A DNA stretch of 35,756 nucleotides, from assembly GCA_019348495.1 (NCBI GenBank), contig JAHWJI010000014.1, positions 1 through 35,756 of the forward strand. Reading direction: 5' to 3'. Position 1 is the first letter of the stretch, and each line of letters opens with the position of its first letter. The position numbers and the translations under genes were made by a program. Positions 24,841 to 31,906 of this stretch are shown one piece after another. This DNA is from Actinomycetota bacterium (lineage in GTDB: Bacteria > Actinomycetota > Acidimicrobiia > Acidimicrobiales > CADCSY01). The notes under the pieces were generated by a model, which did not search any database, was not told the DNA's origin, and saw only the letters and a program-made list of their open reading frames with translations.

Positions 24841-25782
24841 CTACGACGGCGATGCTTCTGGCGGCGTGGACGGGGAGGGCTCGCGTGGCTCGTCCACGGG
24901 GCGGCGTTGCTCGTCGCGCATGGCGGTGCGACCGATCTGGACCAGGCGCAGGACGGTGACCAGAGCCAGGCCCCCGATCATGTTGCCCAGGGCCGCCCAC
25001 AAGGCCATGCCCAGCCAGTCGGCGTAGCCGAAAGGCGCCCCGGCATGCAGGGCGGCGAACATCTCCAGGGAGACCACGATGGCGTGGTTGAGCCGTCCGC
25101 TGGCCAGCACAAAGGCGATGGAGACCGCCGCCACCAACTTCCCGGGCACCGAATCGGTGCCTCGCTCCATCCACGTCATCAGGGTGATGGCTGCGCCCCC
25201 GATGATGGCCGAAGCCAGGGAGGTGGCGCTGATGCCCAGCTCGGGGTAGTGGCTGCCGACCTCCACCGCCGTCTCGTGCAGGTCGGGGAGCCCGACGGCC
25301 ATCAGTCCGGTGAAGGCCCATCCGGCCAGCAGGTTGGTCGCCGCCGTGCCGCCCCAGAGCCGCAGCGTCGCCCCTACCGTCGACTTGTGGGCCACCACCG
25401 CGACCACGGGGACGAGAAAGTTCTCGGTGAACAGCTCGCTGCGCCCGAGCGTCAGGGCGATGAAGCCGATGCTGAAGGCCAGGGCGGCGAGCAGCTCGTT
25501 GCCGGTGCCCTCACGCACGATGAGCAGGGCCATGACCCCCACGCCCACGTCGATGCCGCCCACCGCACCGGTGGAGAGCAGCGCGGGCCAGCTCCGGCCC
25601 AGCCGTCGCTCGGCTTCGTCCACGGTGCTCTGGAACCTGTCCCGCAGCTCCTCGTCGACCGGGCGCCGTCGCCGGCCCAGCTCACGCCGCTGGTCGGCGT
25701 CAGGCCGCCGGGGCTTGTCCTGCCCCGGCGGCACCTCGGTTGCGTCGGACGACGACGTCGTCCTCGAGGTGTCGTTGCTCAT
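24841..25782 (-). CDS. Formate/nitrite transporter (FNT) family channel
   Basis: A 313-residue membrane protein of the FNT family (FocA/NirC/YfdC-like). Residues 1-62 are a charged, disordered cytoplasmic stretch ending in a helix (VDEAERRLGRSWPALL). Six hydrophobic segments follow, with family phrases GGIDVGVGVMALL, LGRSELFTENFLVPV, LWGGTAATNLLAGW and ALWAALGNMIGGL. The long polar ends resemble the YfdC branch rather than classical FocA. The substrate, probably a small monovalent anion, is not determined by sequence; no formate or nitrite metabolism gene is adjacent. ATG 25782 is preceded by a strong ribosome site (GGGGAAAGGGG region). Confidence 0.85.
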   Translation of the reverse strand: MSNDTSRTTSSSDATEVPPGQDKPRRPDADQRRELGRRRRPVDEELRDRFQSTVDEAERRLGRSWPALLSTGAVGGIDVGVGVMALLIVREGTGNELLAALAFSIGFIALTLGRSELFTENFLVPVVAVVAHKSTVGATLRLWGGTAATNLLAGWAFTGLMAVGLPDLHETAVEVGSHYPELGISATSLASAIIGGAAITLMTWMERGTDSVPGKLVAAVSIAFVLASGRLNHAIVVSLEMFAALHAGAPFGYADWLGMALWAALGNMIGGLALVTVLRLVQIGRTAMRDEQRRPVDEPREPSPSTPPEASPS

Positions 25783-25902: not shown

Positions 25903-26712
25903 TCAGGGCGATGATGGCGATGGTGAAGGCCCAGCCACCGAGAGGTTGGTTGCCGGTGGCCTGCCGCTGTCGAGGGGGTCGTAGACGGTGGCCCGGTCCT
26001 CGGGGGCGAACTCGGCGGAAGGGACGTCGAGGACCATCTGGCCGGAGCGCAGCCCGATCACCCGGTGGGCGAACCCGGCCACCAGCTCGACCTGGTGCAG
26101 GCTGCACACCACGGCGATGTCGTGTTCGGTGGCGACCGCCCGCAGGGTGGCGAGCACGCCGGTCGCCGATGCCGGATCGAGGCTGGCCACGGGTTCGTCG
26201 GCCAGGACGAGGCGGCTGCTCTGGGCCAGGGCCCGGGCGATGGCCACCCGCTGTTGCTGGCCGCCGGACAGGGTGTCGGCCCGGGCATCGGCCCGGTCGG
26301 CCAAGCCCACCCGGTCGAGGCACTCCCGGGCCCGCGCCCGCTCCTCGGCGCCGGGCCGTCGGGCCAGCACCCGCCAGGTGGGGAGATGGGCCAGGCGCCC
26401 CACCAGCACGTTGTCGATGGCGCTGAGCCGGCGTACCAGGTTGTAGTGCTGGAAGATCAGGCCGATCTCCCGTCGGGCCTGACGCAGCTCGTTGCCGCCC
26501 AGCCTGACCAGGTCACGCCCTGCCACCTCGACGTGGCCTTCTTCGGGCCGCAACAAAGCGGTGGTGGCCCGGAACAGCGTCGTCTTGCCTGCGCCGCTCG
26601 GTCCGATGACCGCCACCACCTCGCCGGGCATCACGTCGAAGGACACCCCGCGCAACACGGGCGCTCCGCCGTAGCGGTGCCCGAGTCCCTGGACCGACAG
26701 GACGGGCGCCAT
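25903..26712 (-). CDS. phnC: PhnC-type ABC transporter ATP-binding protein
   Basis: About 269 residues, the ATPase of a phosphonate/phosphite-type importer. Walker A is GPSGAGKTT (near 37-45), Q-loop IFQHYNLVRRLSAIDNVL (the phrase typical of PhnC), signature LSGGQQQRVAIARAL, Walker B LVLADEPVASLDP and the switch His in CSLHQVELV. ATG 26712 has a good ribosome site (AGGTGG, 8 bases upstream); GTG 26724 is an alternative that abuts the phnE stop. The last 20 residues are a Ser/Pro tail without family similarity. It is the last gene of the radical SAM-phnD-phnE-phnC unit. Confidence 0.9.
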   Translation of the reverse strand: MAPVLSVQGLGHRYGGAPVLRGVSFDVMPGEVVAVIGPSGAGKTTLFRATTALLRPEEGHVEVAGRDLVRLGGNELRQARREIGLIFQHYNLVRRLSAIDNVLVGRLAHLPTWRVLARRPGAEERARARECLDRVGLADRADARADTLSGGQQQRVAIARALAQSSRLVLADEPVASLDPASATGVLATLRAVATEHDIAVVCSLHQVELVAGFAHRVIGLRSGQMVLDVPSAEFAPEDRATVYDPLDSGRPPATNLSVAGPSPSPSSP

Positions 26713-26724
26713 CCCGGTCGCCAC

Positions 26725-27594
26725 CTACGCCAGCCGGGCCCGGAGGCGGGCCGAGAGCTGGTCCACGGCGGCCACCATGGCCACGATGATCAAGATGATG
26801 GTGAACAGGCGGGGGAAGTTCAACAGGTCGATGGCGTTCTTGAGCTGTTGACCGATGCCCCCGGCTCCTACCACGCCGAGGACGATGGAGGCCCGGATGT
26901 TGAACTCCAGCATGTAGAGCCCCACCGAGACCAGTCCGGGGAGGACATCGGGCAGGAGGGCCCAGCGCACCACCTTGAGTCGACTCGCCCCGGTCAGCTC
27001 GGCTGCCTCGAGAGGTCCCGCAGGCATCCCCTCGATGGTCTCGGCGAAGAGCTTGCCCATGCTGCCAAAGGTGTGGAAGGCGATGCCCAGCGTGCCGGCG
27101 AAGGGGCCCAGGCCCACGGCGGCGACGAAGAGCAGGGCGAAGACGAACGAGTCGATGCCCCGACAAGCGTTGAGCACCCAGCGAGCCGGTATGCGCAGAA
27201 AGCGGGTCGGCGTGAGGTTGCGGGCCGCGGGCACGCACGCCAGTAGGGCGGCGGCGGCGGCGATGGTGGTGCCCACCACGGCGATGGCCACCGTCTCGGC
27301 GGCGCGCCGGAGGAGCAGGTCGAACCCGTCGAACGACGGGGGCCAGGCCCGGGTGGCCCACCCCACCATCTTGGGCAGCCCCTCGGCCAGTGCCCCGGGG
27401 TCGACCTCGGCCAGGCGCACGCACAGGACGAAGCCGGCCACCAGGACCAGGGCGAGGCTGGCTCGGCGGATCCGGGGCAGCGTCCCGGGGACTGGGGGCG
27501 CGCTCCGAGGAGGCTGGCCGGTGGCCACGTCCTCGACGTTGGGGTACGAGTCGCTGACTCCGTCCTGGCCGCGTTGGGCCGCGGTGTCGGTCAA
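26725..27594 (-). CDS. phnE: PhnE-type ABC transporter permease
   Basis: A 289-residue membrane subunit. The N-terminal 40 residues are polar. Hydrophobic helices follow (ALVLVAGFVLCVRLAEV, VAIAVVGTTIAAAAALLACV, FVFALLFVAAVGLGPFAG and two near the C-terminus). The EAA coupling loop is EAAELTGASRLKVVRWALLPDVLPG, with SIVLGVVGAGGIGQQL after it, as in PhnE. Only one permease gene is seen, so a homodimer is likely. The start at TTG 27594 is the only one close to the phnD stop (10 bases); GTG codons further in would shorten the polar N-terminus. Confidence 0.9.
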   Translation of the reverse strand: MTDTAAQRGQDGVSDSYPNVEDVATGQPPRSAPPVPGTLPRIRRASLALVLVAGFVLCVRLAEVDPGALAEGLPKMVGWATRAWPPSFDGFDLLLRRAAETVAIAVVGTTIAAAAALLACVPAARNLTPTRFLRIPARWVLNACRGIDSFVFALLFVAAVGLGPFAGTLGIAFHTFGSMGKLFAETIEGMPAGPLEAAELTGASRLKVVRWALLPDVLPGLVSVGLYMLEFNIRASIVLGVVGAGGIGQQLKNAIDLLNFPRLFTIILIIVAMVAAVDQLSARLRARLA

Positions 27595-27604
27595 GGGAGC
27601 CCGC

Positions 27605-28507
27605 TCAACTGAGTTGACCGAGGTCTTCCGCCGCCTCCCGGATGATCCGGTAGCTCTCGTTGTCGGCGGGCACGAAGCCGGTGTAGTGCTCGGCCATGAA
27701 CGCCTCGGCCTGCTCGGGGGTGATGGCCACGAGGATGTCCTGGATGCGCTGGGCCAGCTCGGGGTCGAGCCCCTCCCGTACGGCGATGGCGTCGTTGGGA
27801 AGGGGCTCGGACTCCCACACCACCTTGGTGGCGTCGGGGCCGATGGCCCCGGCCTCGATCATGGCCGTGCGGTTGCGGTCGTAGTCGGTGGCCAGCTCCA
27901 CCTGGCCGTTGGCCACTGCCGTCTCGTTGGCCGGATGCGCCGCTCCCTCGGAGTACTGGAAGTAGGTCTTGGGGTCGATGCCCTGCTCGGCGAGAAAGTG
28001 GGTGGGGATGAGCCAGCCCGAGGTGGAGGCCACCTCGGTGAAGGAGATCGACATCCCCCGGGCATCGGTGGGCCAGTCGGTGACCGGCGAGTCGGGAGCG
28101 GCCACCACGATCGAGTGGTAGGTGGGCTCTCCGTCGTACTTCACCGTGGCGATGGCCTGGGCACCGGAGTCGTTGTTGGCCAGCACGTAGCCGTAGGGGC
28201 CCATCCAGGCCAGGTCGACCTGGCCGTTGGCCAGGGCCACGGCGATGCCGGCGAAGTCGGTGGTGACGTCCAGCTCGTACTCGGCACCCAGCTGCTCGGC
28301 CAGGTAGGCGAAGAAGGGCTCGAAGGCGGCCTTGGTGTCATCGGCCGTGGGTTGGTAGGGCCCGATCCCGAAGCGGAGTGTCTCGGGGACGTCGGCCCCG
28401 TCACTCGGTCCGGTACCAGAGGCGACGTCGGTGCCGTCGCCGCAGGCGGCCAGGGTGACCAGGGCCAGGACGGCAAGGCTGGCGAGAACGGGACGGAGGC
28501 GTGGCAT
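27605..28507 (-). CDS. phnD: PhnD-type substrate-binding lipoprotein
   Basis: A 300-residue binding protein for a phosphonate/phosphite-class importer. It has a signal peptide with lipobox TLAAC (Cys22). Family phrases are RFGIGPYQPTADD, AWMGPYGYVLAN, TYHSIVVA, ISFTEVASTSGWLIP (STSG phosphate-type loop) and GAAHPANETAVANGQVE with the conserved His. The ligand cannot be chosen between phosphonates, phosphite, phosphate or a phosphorylated metabolite; TDYDRN occupies the segment that varies between ligand classes. ATG 28507 has a ribosome site (AAAGAG, 5 bases upstream). It follows the radical SAM fusion by 34 bases. Confidence 0.9.
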   Translation of the reverse strand: MPRLRPVLASLAVLALVTLAACGDGTDVASGTGPSDGADVPETLRFGIGPYQPTADDTKAAFEPFFAYLAEQLGAEYELDVTTDFAGIAVALANGQVDLAWMGPYGYVLANNDSGAQAIATVKYDGEPTYHSIVVAAPDSPVTDWPTDARGMSISFTEVASTSGWLIPTHFLAEQGIDPKTYFQYSEGAAHPANETAVANGQVELATDYDRNRTAMIEAGAIGPDATKVVWESEPLPNDAIAVREGLDPELAQRIQDILVAITPEQAEAFMAEHYTGFVPADNESYRIIREAAEDLGQLS

Positions 28508-28541
28508 CAACGCTCTTTCTCTCGAGTGGCGGGAGGGTCGT

Positions 28542-30218
28542 TCACACGGCGCAGTTGTAGATGTGAGGCAGGGTGCCGTCGCTCTGGCGCAGCGTGAGGA
28601 AGCGCTCGACGGCCAGGCGCTTGGCCTCGGCCAGGGGGACCTCGCCGGCGGCCAGCAACATGTCGGGGCTGGTCTCGACGTCGGCGCCGGCGGGATGCCA
28701 GTGCACGCCGTCCACGCTGACCGACAGCTCGGGCACGGTGTTGGTTTCGTCGACGTGGATGCCGGTGTCGGAGAAGCCCCGCTTGATGAGGGGGCGCACG
28801 GCGAAGTCCCGCCCGGTGATGCCCATGGTGGCCAACAGAACGCCCAACTCGGCCACCTCGTGGGCGTTCTCGGGTGTCTCGGTCAGGCCCACTCGCATGG
28901 GCAGGCCCAGCTCGCAGCCCAGGGCCAGGCCCTCCATGGCCCGGGCCCACGAGCCCTGGCCCCGGTTGCGGTCATGGGTCTCGGCCCGGGCACCGTCGAT
29001 CGAGGTCTGCAGCACCAGGTGGTCGCGCCCGGCCAGCCGGCGCAGCTCGGCCAGCTGGCGGCCCTTGAACAGCATGGCGTTGGTGAGCACCACGGTGTCG
29101 AGGCGGTCGCTGGCGTAGAGGATCATCTCGACGATGTCGGGCTCGAGGAAGGGCTCGCCTCCGGTCAGGTAGACCTCGGTAAAGCCCTCGACCACCGCCT
29201 CGTCGATCAGATCCCGGAAACGGGGCAGCGGCATGGAGCGGCGCCTGGCGGTGGGCGAGGAGGCCACCGAGCAGTAGACGCAGCGCAGGTTGCAGTGGAA
29301 GTTGGTGTAGATCCACAGCCGGGGTGGGAACAGCGGCGTGGCGAACAGCGGCACCACGGGCAGGCCGTCGTCGACCACCTCGGGGGCATCGGCCCAGCCC
29401 ACGCCCTCGGCCGCGAACCCGCCGGGCACGGCGCTGCGGTAGAGCTGGTAGCGACCCCGGGACCGCTCCAGGGGCGGCACCACCTCCAGGCAGGTGGTCC
29501 ACCAGCCCGTCTCCACCGTCTCCACGAAGGGCTCGGGCAGCCCGGCCGCCCGCATGGAGGCGGCATGGGCCTGCCAGTCGTAGGCCAGGGCGACCAGCTC
29601 GGCCTCGGCGTGGCCGTCGTCGATGTCGATCACCGCGTACCAGACCTCACGCCGGCCGTCGTTGGCCGGACGCCCCAGCGCACCCACGTTGACCACCAGG
29701 CGCTCGCCCACCCGCTTGATCCAGGGCAGCCCGGTGTGGGTGCAGCACAACACGTCGGCGCCGCTGGTCTTGACACGGAGCTCGACCTCGTGGTCGTCGA
29801 GCGACTCCCAGAAGAAGTCGTTGAGCACCAGGGGAGAGCCGTGGACGAAGTGCACGTCGAGGTCCTCGATGGTCTCCCGGTGCTCGATGTCGAGAGTGCG
29901 CATCCACGCCGCGTACTCGGCGCTGGTGTGGGCCTTGGTGAAGTCGTAGATGAGCTGGGCGAACTCGTTGTCGCGGGGATCGAGGTAGCCGCAGCCGCAG
30001 TCGTCGTCACCCCGGCCGATGGCCACGTCGTAGTTGCCGGCGATGCACTCCACGCCGTTGTCGACCAGGAGGGGCCACACCGCGTCGGGCTCGGCGCCGA
30101 AGCCGCCCAGGTCACCAAGGCAGAACAACCGGTCGCACCCCCGGCGGCGGGCGTCGTCGAGGAACGCCCGCAGGGCGTAGGGATTGGAGTAGACGCCGCC
30201 GCAGACCGCCAGTCGCAT
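28542..30218 (-). CDS. Metallophosphatase-like/radical SAM fusion protein
   Basis: A 558-residue fusion. Residues 1-215 follow the calcineurin-like phosphoesterase order: CGGVYSNPYAL (6-16), CLGDLGGFG (33-41), AGNYDVA (60-66), VHGSPL (125-130), CTHTGLP (159-165) and VNVGALGRP (177-184). Canonical ligands Asp-x-His in motif I are Gly and Tyr here, and GNHD is GNYD, so the fold is kept but the metal site is altered. Residues 300-558 are a radical SAM domain with CNLRCVYC (C309, C313, C316), LTGGEP (352-357) and LQTSIDG. No SPASM cysteines follow, but the protein ends in CAV. Neighbours phnD-phnE-phnC suggest work on an imported phosphorus-containing compound. That is inference. Confidence 0.85.
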   Translation of the reverse strand: MRLAVCGGVYSNPYALRAFLDDARRRGCDRLFCLGDLGGFGAEPDAVWPLLVDNGVECIAGNYDVAIGRGDDDCGCGYLDPRDNEFAQLIYDFTKAHTSAEYAAWMRTLDIEHRETIEDLDVHFVHGSPLVLNDFFWESLDDHEVELRVKTSGADVLCCTHTGLPWIKRVGERLVVNVGALGRPANDGRREVWYAVIDIDDGHAEAELVALAYDWQAHAASMRAAGLPEPFVETVETGWWTTCLEVVPPLERSRGRYQLYRSAVPGGFAAEGVGWADAPEVVDDGLPVVPLFATPLFPPRLWIYTNFHCNLRCVYCSVASSPTARRRSMPLPRFRDLIDEAVVEGFTEVYLTGGEPFLEPDIVEMILYASDRLDTVVLTNAMLFKGRQLAELRRLAGRDHLVLQTSIDGARAETHDRNRGQGSWARAMEGLALGCELGLPMRVGLTETPENAHEVAELGVLLATMGITGRDFAVRPLIKRGFSDTGIHVDETNTVPELSVSVDGVHWHPAGADVETSPDMLLAAGEVPLAEAKRLAVERFLTLRQSDGTLPHIYNCAV

Positions 30219-30230: not shown

Positions 30231-30763
30231 CAACCGGAGTTTGACCATCACTCCCTCCGGGCGTCGCCCCGGGTGACCAGCGCGGTAACGTCGGGCCTGG
30301 TGGACGGGCGGGAGCGCTGGCGCCGAGGATCCGGAGAGAAGTAAAGTTTCGGCGGCCTCATGTGCCCGAGGCCCACGTCCGCTAGGACCGCACGCCGGTG
30401 GCTCGCCCCGGGGGCGTCTTCGGGTCTCACCAGATCACCGAGCCGCTGACGCAATCGACGTCGCCGTGTTCCTGGTGATGTGCCACACCGAGCCCCACCC
30501 GCGATAGGTGTGGACTGGTCCAGGCCGGCTGAGCGTGTACCGCCGCCCTCGATGGCCGAGGCCATCACGGCGCCTGCCGGCACCGCCGGTCGCTGCTGCT
30601 GGTGGGGCCAACGAGCACGGCTGACGCCCCTTGAAAGCATGGTGTCGGTGAGCACCACGGTGTCGAGGCGGTCGCTGGCGTAGAGGATCGTGTCGACGAT
30701 GTCGGCATGCTCGTGAGAGCGCAGGAGCCACGGCGACGGACCGCCTCGGTAGCCTCGCTCCCC
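30231..30763. other. 533-base intergenic region without a credible gene
   Basis: No frame here shows convincing coding character. It contains the duplicated fragment of the radical SAM gene (30624-30711). It also has a local AT-richer patch (AAGTAAAGTTT near 30341-30351) and the promoter of the acyl-CoA dehydrogenase-like gene at its right end. A minus-strand frame is open through the region but only continues antisense of that dehydrogenase. Confidence 0.55.
30624..30711 (-). repeat. Duplicated fragment of the radical SAM gene
   Basis: This stretch matches 29061-29144 inside the radical SAM domain, in the same orientation. Bases 30645-30687 are identical to 29082-29124 (43 of 43), and the flanks match more loosely on both sides. 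On the minus strand it reads ADIVDTILYASDRLDTVVLT, against DIVEMILYASDRLDTVVLT in the gene. Beyond the repeat the similarity fades. It is either the remnant of a second copy, or a short recombination product. Confidence 0.8.
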
Positions 30764-31906
30764 GTGACCGAGGCCACCGCCCGCCGGTCCCAACCTGGCG
30801 GGCTCGACGATCACCCGTGCGTGCGGGCCGCCCTCCGTCTGGCCGCCGGGGTGTTGGCGCCCCAGGCCGAGCAGGTCGATGTCGAGGGGGTCCCCGCCAG
30901 CCACGTCGAGGCCCTGGCCGGCGCCGGCCTCCTCGGCCTCTACGGTCCGGCGGACGCCGGCGGCAGCGATGTCCCGGCACCGGTGGCCCGGCGGGTCACC
31001 GAGGTGCTCTCGGGCGCCGACGGGGCCACCTGGTTCGTGTGGACCCAGCACGCCACTCCGGTGCGGGCGCTGACCCGCTCGGGCAACGCCGAACTGCGCC
31101 GGCGGTGGTTGCCCCGGCTGTGCCGGGATGTCCTGGGCGGGATCGCCATGGCTCACCTGCGCCGTTCGGCGGGGCCCACGGTGCGGGCCTGCGCCGGGGC
31201 CGACGGCGGTTGGCGTCTCGACGGGACGGCGTCGTGGGTGACGAGTTGGGGCTTGGCCGAGGTGCTCCTGGTGGGGGCGGTGACCGACGACGACCGGGCG
31301 GTGTCGGTCCTGGTGGCGGCCCACGAGCAGCCCGGTCTGGTCGCGTCGCAGCCCCTGGCCCTGGCCGCCATGGGAGCAACGTCGACCGTACGACTGGAGC
31401 TCGACGGCCTGGTGGTGCCGGCGGGCGACGTCGTCGACGTCGAGCCCCTCGACCGGTGGCGCCGGGCCGACGCCGACAAGACGGCCAACGTCACCCCGGC
31501 GGTGTTCGGGCTCATCGACTCGGTGGTGGCCAAGCTCGAGGCGGCGGCCGATCGGCGGGGGGAGCCGGCCGCCCTGGCCTTGGCCCGGGCCCTGGCCGAG
31601 GAGACCGGCGCAGTGCGCGCCGCGGCGTACCGTCTGCTCGACGAGGTCCCGGCCCGGGAGGCCATCGAGGAACGACTTGCCCTTCGTGGCCACGCCCTGG
31701 AGCTGGGGGTACGGGCGGCCACCGCCCTGGTGGTGACCAGCGGGGGAGCGGGGATGTCGCGCTCGTCGCCGGCCCAACGACTCGCCCGCGAGGCCCTGTT
31801 CCACCTCGTCCAGGCCCAGACGCCACCGGTGCGACGGGCGACCCTGGCCCGTCTCGCGGAGGTCGGCGGGCGCCGCTGGGCACCGGGTCAACCTCGGTCG
31901 CAGTAG
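30764..31906 (+). CDS. Acyl-CoA dehydrogenase-like protein
   Basis: About 380 residues with the acyl-CoA dehydrogenase fold. N-terminal helices (VEALAGAGLLGLYGPADAGGSD) lead to a middle beta domain (GWRLDGTASWVTSWGLAEVLLVGAV, the FAD-contact region). The C-terminal helices are divergent and end FHLVQAQTPPVRRATLARL. I cannot see the usual catalytic Glu environment or the C-terminal RxxG pattern clearly, so the enzyme may act on an unusual substrate, or not as a dehydrogenase. GTG 30764 was chosen because TAGCCT lies 8 bases before it (30750-30755); an earlier in-frame ATG at 30707 falls inside the duplicated radical SAM fragment. Confidence 0.75.
   Translation: MTEATARRSQPGGLDDHPCVRAALRLAAGVLAPQAEQVDVEGVPASHVEALAGAGLLGLYGPADAGGSDVPAPVARRVTEVLSGADGATWFVWTQHATPVRALTRSGNAELRRRWLPRLCRDVLGGIAMAHLRRSAGPTVRACAGADGGWRLDGTASWVTSWGLAEVLLVGAVTDDDRAVSVLVAAHEQPGLVASQPLALAAMGATSTVRLELDGLVVPAGDVVDVEPLDRWRRADADKTANVTPAVFGLIDSVVAKLEAAADRRGEPAALALARALAEETGAVRAAAYRLLDEVPAREAIEERLALRGHALELGVRAATALVVTSGGAGMSRSSPAQRLAREALFHLVQAQTPPVRRATLARLAEVGGRRWAPGQPRSQ

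Follow-up and report, generated by a model that had tools for sequence, protein, structure and literature searches.

A phosphoesterase-fold/radical SAM fusion protein and an HtxB-like importer in a probable arsenic operon of an actinobacterium

Radical SAM adenosylation of arsenic, with formation of a carbon-arsenic (C-As) bond, has a precedent (PMC12159101), and uncharacterised metallophosphoesterases have been reported in ars operons (PMC10652896). We investigated a four-gene unit from a bacterium of the order Acidimicrobiales, located in a 35,756-nucleotide stretch of DNA (contig JAHWJI010000014.1; hereafter the window). The unit encodes a fusion of a metallophosphoesterase-fold domain with a radical SAM domain, followed by the PhnD-, PhnE- and PhnC-like components of an ATP-binding cassette (ABC) importer. 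Because several mutually independent lines of evidence agree (the neighbours of the fusion, the relatives of its N-terminal domain, the clade of the associated MTAPs and an ArsM-family gene in a sister operon), the arsenic link of the unit is well supported. We consider it probable that the operon handles arsenic, with the radical SAM half in the role of ArsS and an HtxB-like importer feeding a small oxyanion.

The ArsS arsenosugar pathway (TIGR04167, ArsM, an MTAP-like enzyme and TIGR04282/TIGR04283) resembles the family studied here in that a radical SAM gene stands beside a TIGR04283 gene and an MTAP gene of the same clade, with ArsM near several of the loci. However, the sequence of the radical SAM half of the fusion is not that of an ArsS, a phosphoesterase domain is joined to it, and the unit in the window has an ABC importer and neither MTAP nor TIGR04283. 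The arsinothricin cluster arsQML, compared by its description, also combines a radical SAM protein, an ArsM methyltransferase and C-As bond formation, but the N-terminal length of ArsL differs and no MTAP or TIGR04282/TIGR04283 set is described for it. MrMe1/MrMe2 of Mucilaginibacter (PMC10652896), likened by gene context alone, are phosphoesterases encoded among arsenic resistance genes; unlike the metallophosphoesterases of ars operons, the fused domain is without three metal ligands. Finally, Rv1679-Rv1680-Rv1681 of M. tuberculosis includes the nearest NCBIfam radical SAM family, with PhnD-like and acyl-CoA-dehydrogenase-like neighbours, but the homologous loci that we read have no phosphoesterase domain, and their binding-like protein has no adjacent transporter genes.

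Arsenic genes around the fusion and its relatives

Bit scores are given against the curated Pfam or NCBIfam cut-offs (score vs cut-off); genomes and loci are labelled G and L (G654 = L003, G655 = L011, G661 = L004, G138 = L074). Neighbours were counted by tblastn with family representatives at 42 other full-length fusion loci. The counts are lower bounds, since many loci are short contigs and several genomes are fragmented, and the Streptomyces entries are not mutually independent. A TIGR04283-type gene accompanies the fusion at 36 of the 42 loci, a second radical SAM gene at 28, a TIGR04282-type gene at 24, a gene for a flavin adenine dinucleotide (FAD) protein at 21, and MTAP at 20. The usual order in Streptomyces is DedA, methyltransferase, FAD oxidoreductase, second radical SAM, MTAP-like, TIGR04282, TIGR04283, fusion, FAD protein. 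Both transferases of the fusion clusters score above the NCBIfam cut-offs (180 vs 134 bits for TIGR04282 and 234.5 vs 182 bits for TIGR04283), and NCBI names both families arsenosugar biosynthesis enzymes. Genuine ArsS (TIGR04167 above cut-off) occurs in eight of 396 genomes of the phylum, and in six a TIGR04283-type gene and an MTAP gene both adjoin it, in the order TIGR04283-ArsS-MTAP. In a maximum-likelihood tree the MTAPs of the fusion clusters and of the ArsS clusters form one clade (100/97), with the housekeeping MTAPs outside; the L139 MTAP, a partial sequence on a very long branch at the base of the clade, was left uninterpreted. Because the partners match, with TIGR04283 in both and the MTAPs in one clade, the fusion appears to stand in the slot that ArsS occupies elsewhere.

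The second radical SAM protein of the clusters (L015:4103-5749 and relatives) has about 470 residues and the motif CNLKCTPC; it matches no NCBIfam model at 1e-5 and Pfam Radical_SAM weakly. Methyltransferase c9 was ruled out as an ArsM, its best model being DVU_1556 with 51 bits. The ArsS gene of L100 (G626) contains one in-frame TGA, as expected of a selenocysteine-containing ArsS.

Stand-alone relatives of the N-terminal domain (about 29-37% identity) were found at 11 loci and retain the canonical metal ligands and the CGC motif. An ArsC-, ACR3-, ArsR-, ArsM- or ArsO-type gene lies within 2 kb of the relative in all 11 loci, compared with none of 30 control loci, which are about as large and were retrieved through remoter radical SAM or phosphoesterase matches. 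Scores above cut-off confirm ACR3 and ArsR (ACR3 with 445 and 459 bits vs 282.8, the 445 being that of the fusion locus L015), ArsM in G427 (306 bits vs 263) and the ArsM-type genes of L174 and L179. The best-matching models of the ArsC-like proteins are arsenate reductases, with scores below cut-off. Selenocysteine codons were considered for the stand-alone metallophosphoesterases and rejected, the in-frame stops falling outside the DCGC motif on inspection.

Arsenic genes are also found beside the fusion itself. Downstream of the cluster in L015 (Streptomyces sp. SM10) are the ACR3 gene just mentioned, a gene for an ArsR-type regulator, two ArsC-like genes and an ArsO-like gene, and four Streptomyces genomes carry ArsM-family genes (about 196-198 bits vs 263) some 0.3-5 kb from the fusion cluster. 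G138 has the 'arsenosugar-associated' gene TIGR04169 (131.8 bits vs 120) directly after phnC; this genome also has a weak ArsM-family match, but the separate radical SAM protein near it looked unrelated. G654, which belongs to the genus of the window, has an ArsM-family gene directly after phnC (341 bits vs 500 for NF040538, the arsinothricin ArsM model, and 190 vs 263 for NF008823), followed by a pst operon, an FAD protein and a nucleoside phosphorylase. In G661 an ArsM-like gene, 76% identical to that of G654, stands at the end of a contig, a position that would fit the same order. A preliminary description of the locus had stressed missing phosphorus genes and a missing methyltransferase. 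Indeed, beside the window's operon we saw no gene for a C-P (carbon-phosphorus) lyase, a phosphonatase or a methyltransferase, but the ArsM-family gene of G654 shows that the last absence does not extend to the sister operon.

The fusion protein and its locus

Pfam assigns residues 1-201 of the fusion to Metallophos_2 (47.3 bits vs 27) and residues 308-457 to Radical_SAM (70.3 bits vs 29.5). The latter score and the CX3CX2C motif, whose C309, C313 and C316 are invariant among 31 aligned fusions, make the protein a member of the radical SAM superfamily; C556 is invariant as well, in a stretch (residues 551-558) modelled without confidence. The best of all NCBIfam models is NF049973, the Rv1681 family (261.5 bits, under its cut-off of 380). 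Membership in the ArsS family is ruled out by TIGR04167 (46.5 bits for the protein and 48 in the genome search, vs 300), and TIGR04553, which would suggest a selenium-type reading, gives 108 bits, below 250. AlphaFold predicts two separate domains (pLDDT 81.3, pTM 0.50), with the linking stretch 241-288 poorly predicted. Residues 1-242 match 3qfm, 3rqz, 1nnw, the asymmetric Ap4A hydrolase SapH and related phosphoesterases (Z 23-25 for the domain vs 1nnw, 2gju, 3qfm and 3rqz), and residues 281-556 or so match SkfB, SuiB, BlsE, DesII and viperin-like proteins. In the model, fold and sequence matches place both domains and give no substrate.

The N-terminus has the calcineurin-like fold and the Pfam domain, but its dinuclear ligand set (D-x-H, G-D, G-N, H, G-H-x-H) is incomplete, the first motif having lost both its D and its H and the last motif its second H. 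Compared with canonical relatives, the 31 fusions have the invariant residues G8, Y10 and G163 at these three places, and the metal-2 ligands D36, N62, H126 and H161 are invariant.

Table 1. Coordinates of the features discussed, as positions in the window.
Feature	Position	Strand	Evidence
Fusion protein, 558 aa, metallophosphoesterase-fold + radical SAM	28542..30218	-	Pfam, AlphaFold model, structural matches
Metallophosphoesterase-fold domain, residues 1-201	29616..30218	-	Pfam Metallophos_2
Invariant D73-C74-G75-C76 motif	29991..30002	-	Alignment; CGC common to stand-alone homologues in ars loci
Radical SAM core, residues 308-457	28848..29297	-	Nearest NCBIfam family Rv1681 (NF049973)
CX3CX2C [4Fe-4S] motif CNLRCVYC, residues 309-316	29271..29294	-	Sequence
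PhnD-like lipoprotein-type substrate-binding protein, HtxB-like pocket	27605..28507 (or 28510)	-	PF12974 215 bits
PhnE-like permease	26725..27594	-	TIGR01097 259 bits vs cut-off 217
PhnC-like ATPase	25903..26724 (GTG start) or 26712 (ATG start)	-	TIGR02315 279 bits vs cut-off 266
Acyl-CoA-dehydrogenase-like flavoprotein, divergent	30707..31906	+	SfnB 51 bits, Rv1679/FadE16 38 bits
87-bp copy of fusion segment 29054-29140 (radical SAM coding region), 92% identical	30620..30705	-	Sequence repeat

The genome assembly that contains the window comprises 2.2 Mb in 161 contigs and is 98% complete. The four genes occupy positions 25903-30218 of the minus strand and are separated by 31 or 34, 10, and 0 or 12 nucleotides, depending on the start codon chosen; the place and spacing given in the preliminary description are thus confirmed, and so, by the Pfam and NCBIfam scores, are the fusion and the PhnD-E-C importer. 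A consensus scan found no sigma-70-like promoter; a TAACCT hexamer lies a few bases upstream of the fusion ATG, and the putative leaderless promoter of the preliminary description is a guess.

The divergent acyl-CoA-dehydrogenase-like gene adjoins the fusion in L003 and L004 too, and in the window the 87-bp repeat stands just ahead of its start. Acyl-CoA-dehydrogenase, substrate-binding-like and radical SAM genes form a block like Rv1679-1681 in L041, L042, L075, L076 and L077, and all three kinds of gene occur in the window too. A TIGR04282-type gene is found about 2 kb or less from the Rv1681-type radical SAM gene in L077, L078 and L081, a hint that Rv1680/Rv1681 may serve chemistry related to that of the fusion clusters. 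On the other side of the operon, a gene of the formate/nitrite-transporter family (24841-25782, same strand) begins 120 nucleotides past phnC; in G654 the ArsM-like gene and the pst operon separate the two. A sugar operon with FGGY kinase, class II aldolase and isomerase-like genes is located upstream in L003, L004 and L011 and not at the window locus. We considered it as a 5-deoxypentose route; the three genomes are close relatives.

The importer and its pairing with the fusion

The hypophosphite and phosphite importers HtxBCDE and PtxABC provide the closest comparison for the transport genes. Of all solved structures, that of HtxB from Pseudomonas stutzeri comes closest to the binding protein (E 6.6e-81; 47% identity), which scores 177 bits vs 112 for the binding-protein subfamily TIGR01098 and, with PhnE and PhnC, makes up an importer of the phosphonate/phosphite type; for the PhnD equivalog TIGR03431 it reaches 181 bits, under the cut-off of 261. 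Using the ligand-site residues described for HtxB (PMC6629693 and PMC5700983), we find the oxygen-binding Y97, T129 and S130 and the salt bridge R178-D206 kept, and from these residues the protein should bind a small oxyanion. The HtxB residues W52, N128, F158 and M176 have F, S, H and Y as counterparts here, so that the pocket is not that of the hypophosphite binder, and the enzyme encoded alongside is not HtxA and not PtxD. S128, H158, Y/F176 and a tryptophan cap characterise an 'HtxB-like' group, and the window protein has the first three; the S/H/Y set at positions 128, 158 and 176 is predicted to widen the pocket and admit phosphite (PMC6629693). At the position of the cap, the proteins of the window, L003 and L004 have F, and those of L011 and L074 have W.

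The importer is rare: at 1e-55 only the window's own was recovered among the 396 genomes sampled from the phylum, and six of 59 relatives have a match. The order fusion-phnD-phnE-phnC is found in the window, G654, G655 and G661, which belong to the same genus or family. G138, from another family of the same order, has kept the gene order, but an in-frame deletion has removed the radical SAM core from its fusion; the phosphoesterase and C-terminal parts remain (L074:1830-3038), and the importer is still downstream. Within this clade, enzyme and importer do belong together, as the preliminary description proposed. As a general trait, however, the pairing fails: PhnD was found at three of the 42 other full-length fusion loci, the importer is lacking at 39, and the fusion is common without it in Streptomyces, Catenulispora, Thermoleophilia and others. 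This is the outcome that the preliminary description had itself named as a refutation. The pairing is young and confined to five genomes of one order. Because of this limitation, it is unlikely that the fusion family in general serves a phosphorus pathway, and with arsenic genes recurring at its loci we rejected this reading.

The HtxB-like phnDEC genes also occur without the fusion in G656, a genome of the same genus (L149:5531-11362), where a DsrE/TusA/methionine-synthase-like pair and a TIGR04282-type gene adjoin them. Elsewhere in the class, two genomes (L079:4195-9966 and L080:2133-9482) have Rv1681-like radical SAM genes about 2.5 kb from PhnE-PhnE-PhnC-like transporter genes.

Proposed function and alternatives

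Gene content, conservation, the arsenic neighbourhoods, the common MTAP clade and the pocket residues are observations; what the enzyme catalyses, which ion is carried and what the phosphoesterase half contributes are inferred as follows. The radical SAM half would join the 5'-deoxyadenosyl radical from SAM to a trivalent, probably methylated, arsenical, creating a C-As bond. In the larger actinobacterial clusters the dedicated MTA-phosphorylase-like enzyme would then strip the adenine, and the TIGR04282/TIGR04283 enzymes would hand on the sugar. In the lineage of the window a different nucleoside phosphorylase and a flavoprotein may perform these steps; in the window's genome the FAD protein and the nucleoside phosphorylase are encoded together on another contig. 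Because three metal ligands are lost and DCGC is kept, the N-terminal domain, derived from the ars-operon hydrolase family, is probably a binder or processor of arsenicals, or a one-metal hydrolase. The HtxB-like importer would supply a small oxyanion, possibly methylarsonate or dimethylarsinate; by analogy, dimethylarsinate, with two oxygens and two methyls, might pass as a larger counterpart of hypophosphite, and methylarsonate likewise of phosphite. That the importer scavenges methylated arsenic through its enlarged HtxB-like pocket for the fused C-As-forming enzyme, allowing arsenosugar-type compounds to be made without an ArsM of the cell's own, is a speculative extension that we regard as rather unlikely.

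Several observations weigh against an arsenic function in the role of ArsS. No ars gene stands beside the operon in the window. Its genome yielded no ArsM match at 1e-20, no TIGR04283 above cut-off, no second radical SAM protein and no ArsS, from which the fusion itself is remote in sequence; the pair typical of ArsS clusters, a TIGR04283 gene and an MTAP-like gene beside the radical SAM gene, was not recovered in the genome from which the window comes. Furthermore, TIGR04282 and TIGR04283 owe their 'arsenosugar' names largely to gene association, and the binding protein groups with phosphite and hypophosphite binders of known pocket residues.

The binding pocket enters two of the alternatives. 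In one, the unit handles arsenic but the importer brings in phosphite or another phosphorus source, offsetting competition by arsenate, a role that pst and phn operons of arsenic islands may also have. The pocket residues suit phosphite, a pst phosphate-uptake operon is located between the ArsM-like and formate/nitrite-type transporter genes of G654, and phn-type operons (phn1, with pst1) have been described in arsenic islands without assigned function (PMC3834237). However, enzyme and importer form one tight unit with no known phosphite-using enzyme adjoining, and we consider this explanation unlikely, albeit the least so of the alternatives. It is followed, at a somewhat lower probability, by true phosphorus chemistry, to which the preliminary description had looked: phosphite or a small phosphonate would be imported, a C-P bond made or broken, and the phosphoesterase would act on a phosphoester intermediate. 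HtxB as nearest solved structure, the predicted phosphite pocket and PhnE and PhnC scores above the family cut-offs all agree with this. Nevertheless, the related clusters hold arsenic genes and no phosphonate genes, most fusion loci have no importer, and no C-P lyase, phosphonatase or PhnW/X-type gene was found beside the operon or in the relatives' loci that we read (for phnGHIJ-type C-P lyase genes the search covered these loci and not the whole genome). Neighbours, N-terminal-domain relatives and the fifth gene of the sister operon instead point to arsenic.

If the fusion acted like ArsL, then the 3-amino-3-carboxypropyl group of SAM, instead of the deoxyadenosyl group, would be transferred to arsenite. 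ArsL, itself a radical SAM protein, has about 190 residues ahead of its motif (PMC8552651), and the ArsM-like protein of G654 scores best against the arsinothricin ArsM model. Yet MTAP, TIGR04282 and TIGR04283 occur in the fusion clusters as they do in ArsS clusters, which suits an adenosyl product, and the fusion's 25 best NCBIfam matches include no ArsL model, although whether the library holds one was not checked; we judge the ArsL-like reaction improbable. Least probable is a chance neighbourhood, in which independent fusion and importer genes share a promoter by accident. The absence of the importer from most fusion loci and the importer without fusion in G656 would fit, but the gene order is conserved in the window, G654, G655 and G661, and in G138 apart from the lost radical SAM core, and an Rv1681-type radical SAM protein is again found beside a PhnD-like protein in the Rv1680/Rv1681 pairs.

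The arsenic reading thus remains the one that we prefer. A literature search found no published description of the fusion or its cluster, which supports the earlier statement that no named pathway has this set of genes. The reading provides a testable function for an unnamed, widespread actinobacterial cluster and for the metallophosphoesterases of arsenic operons, and it offers a candidate importer of organoarsenicals. It also bears on the uncharacterised pair Rv1680/Rv1681 of M. tuberculosis, and it suggests that C-As chemistry is commoner in soil actinobacteria than the cases of bisenarsan and arsinothricin show.

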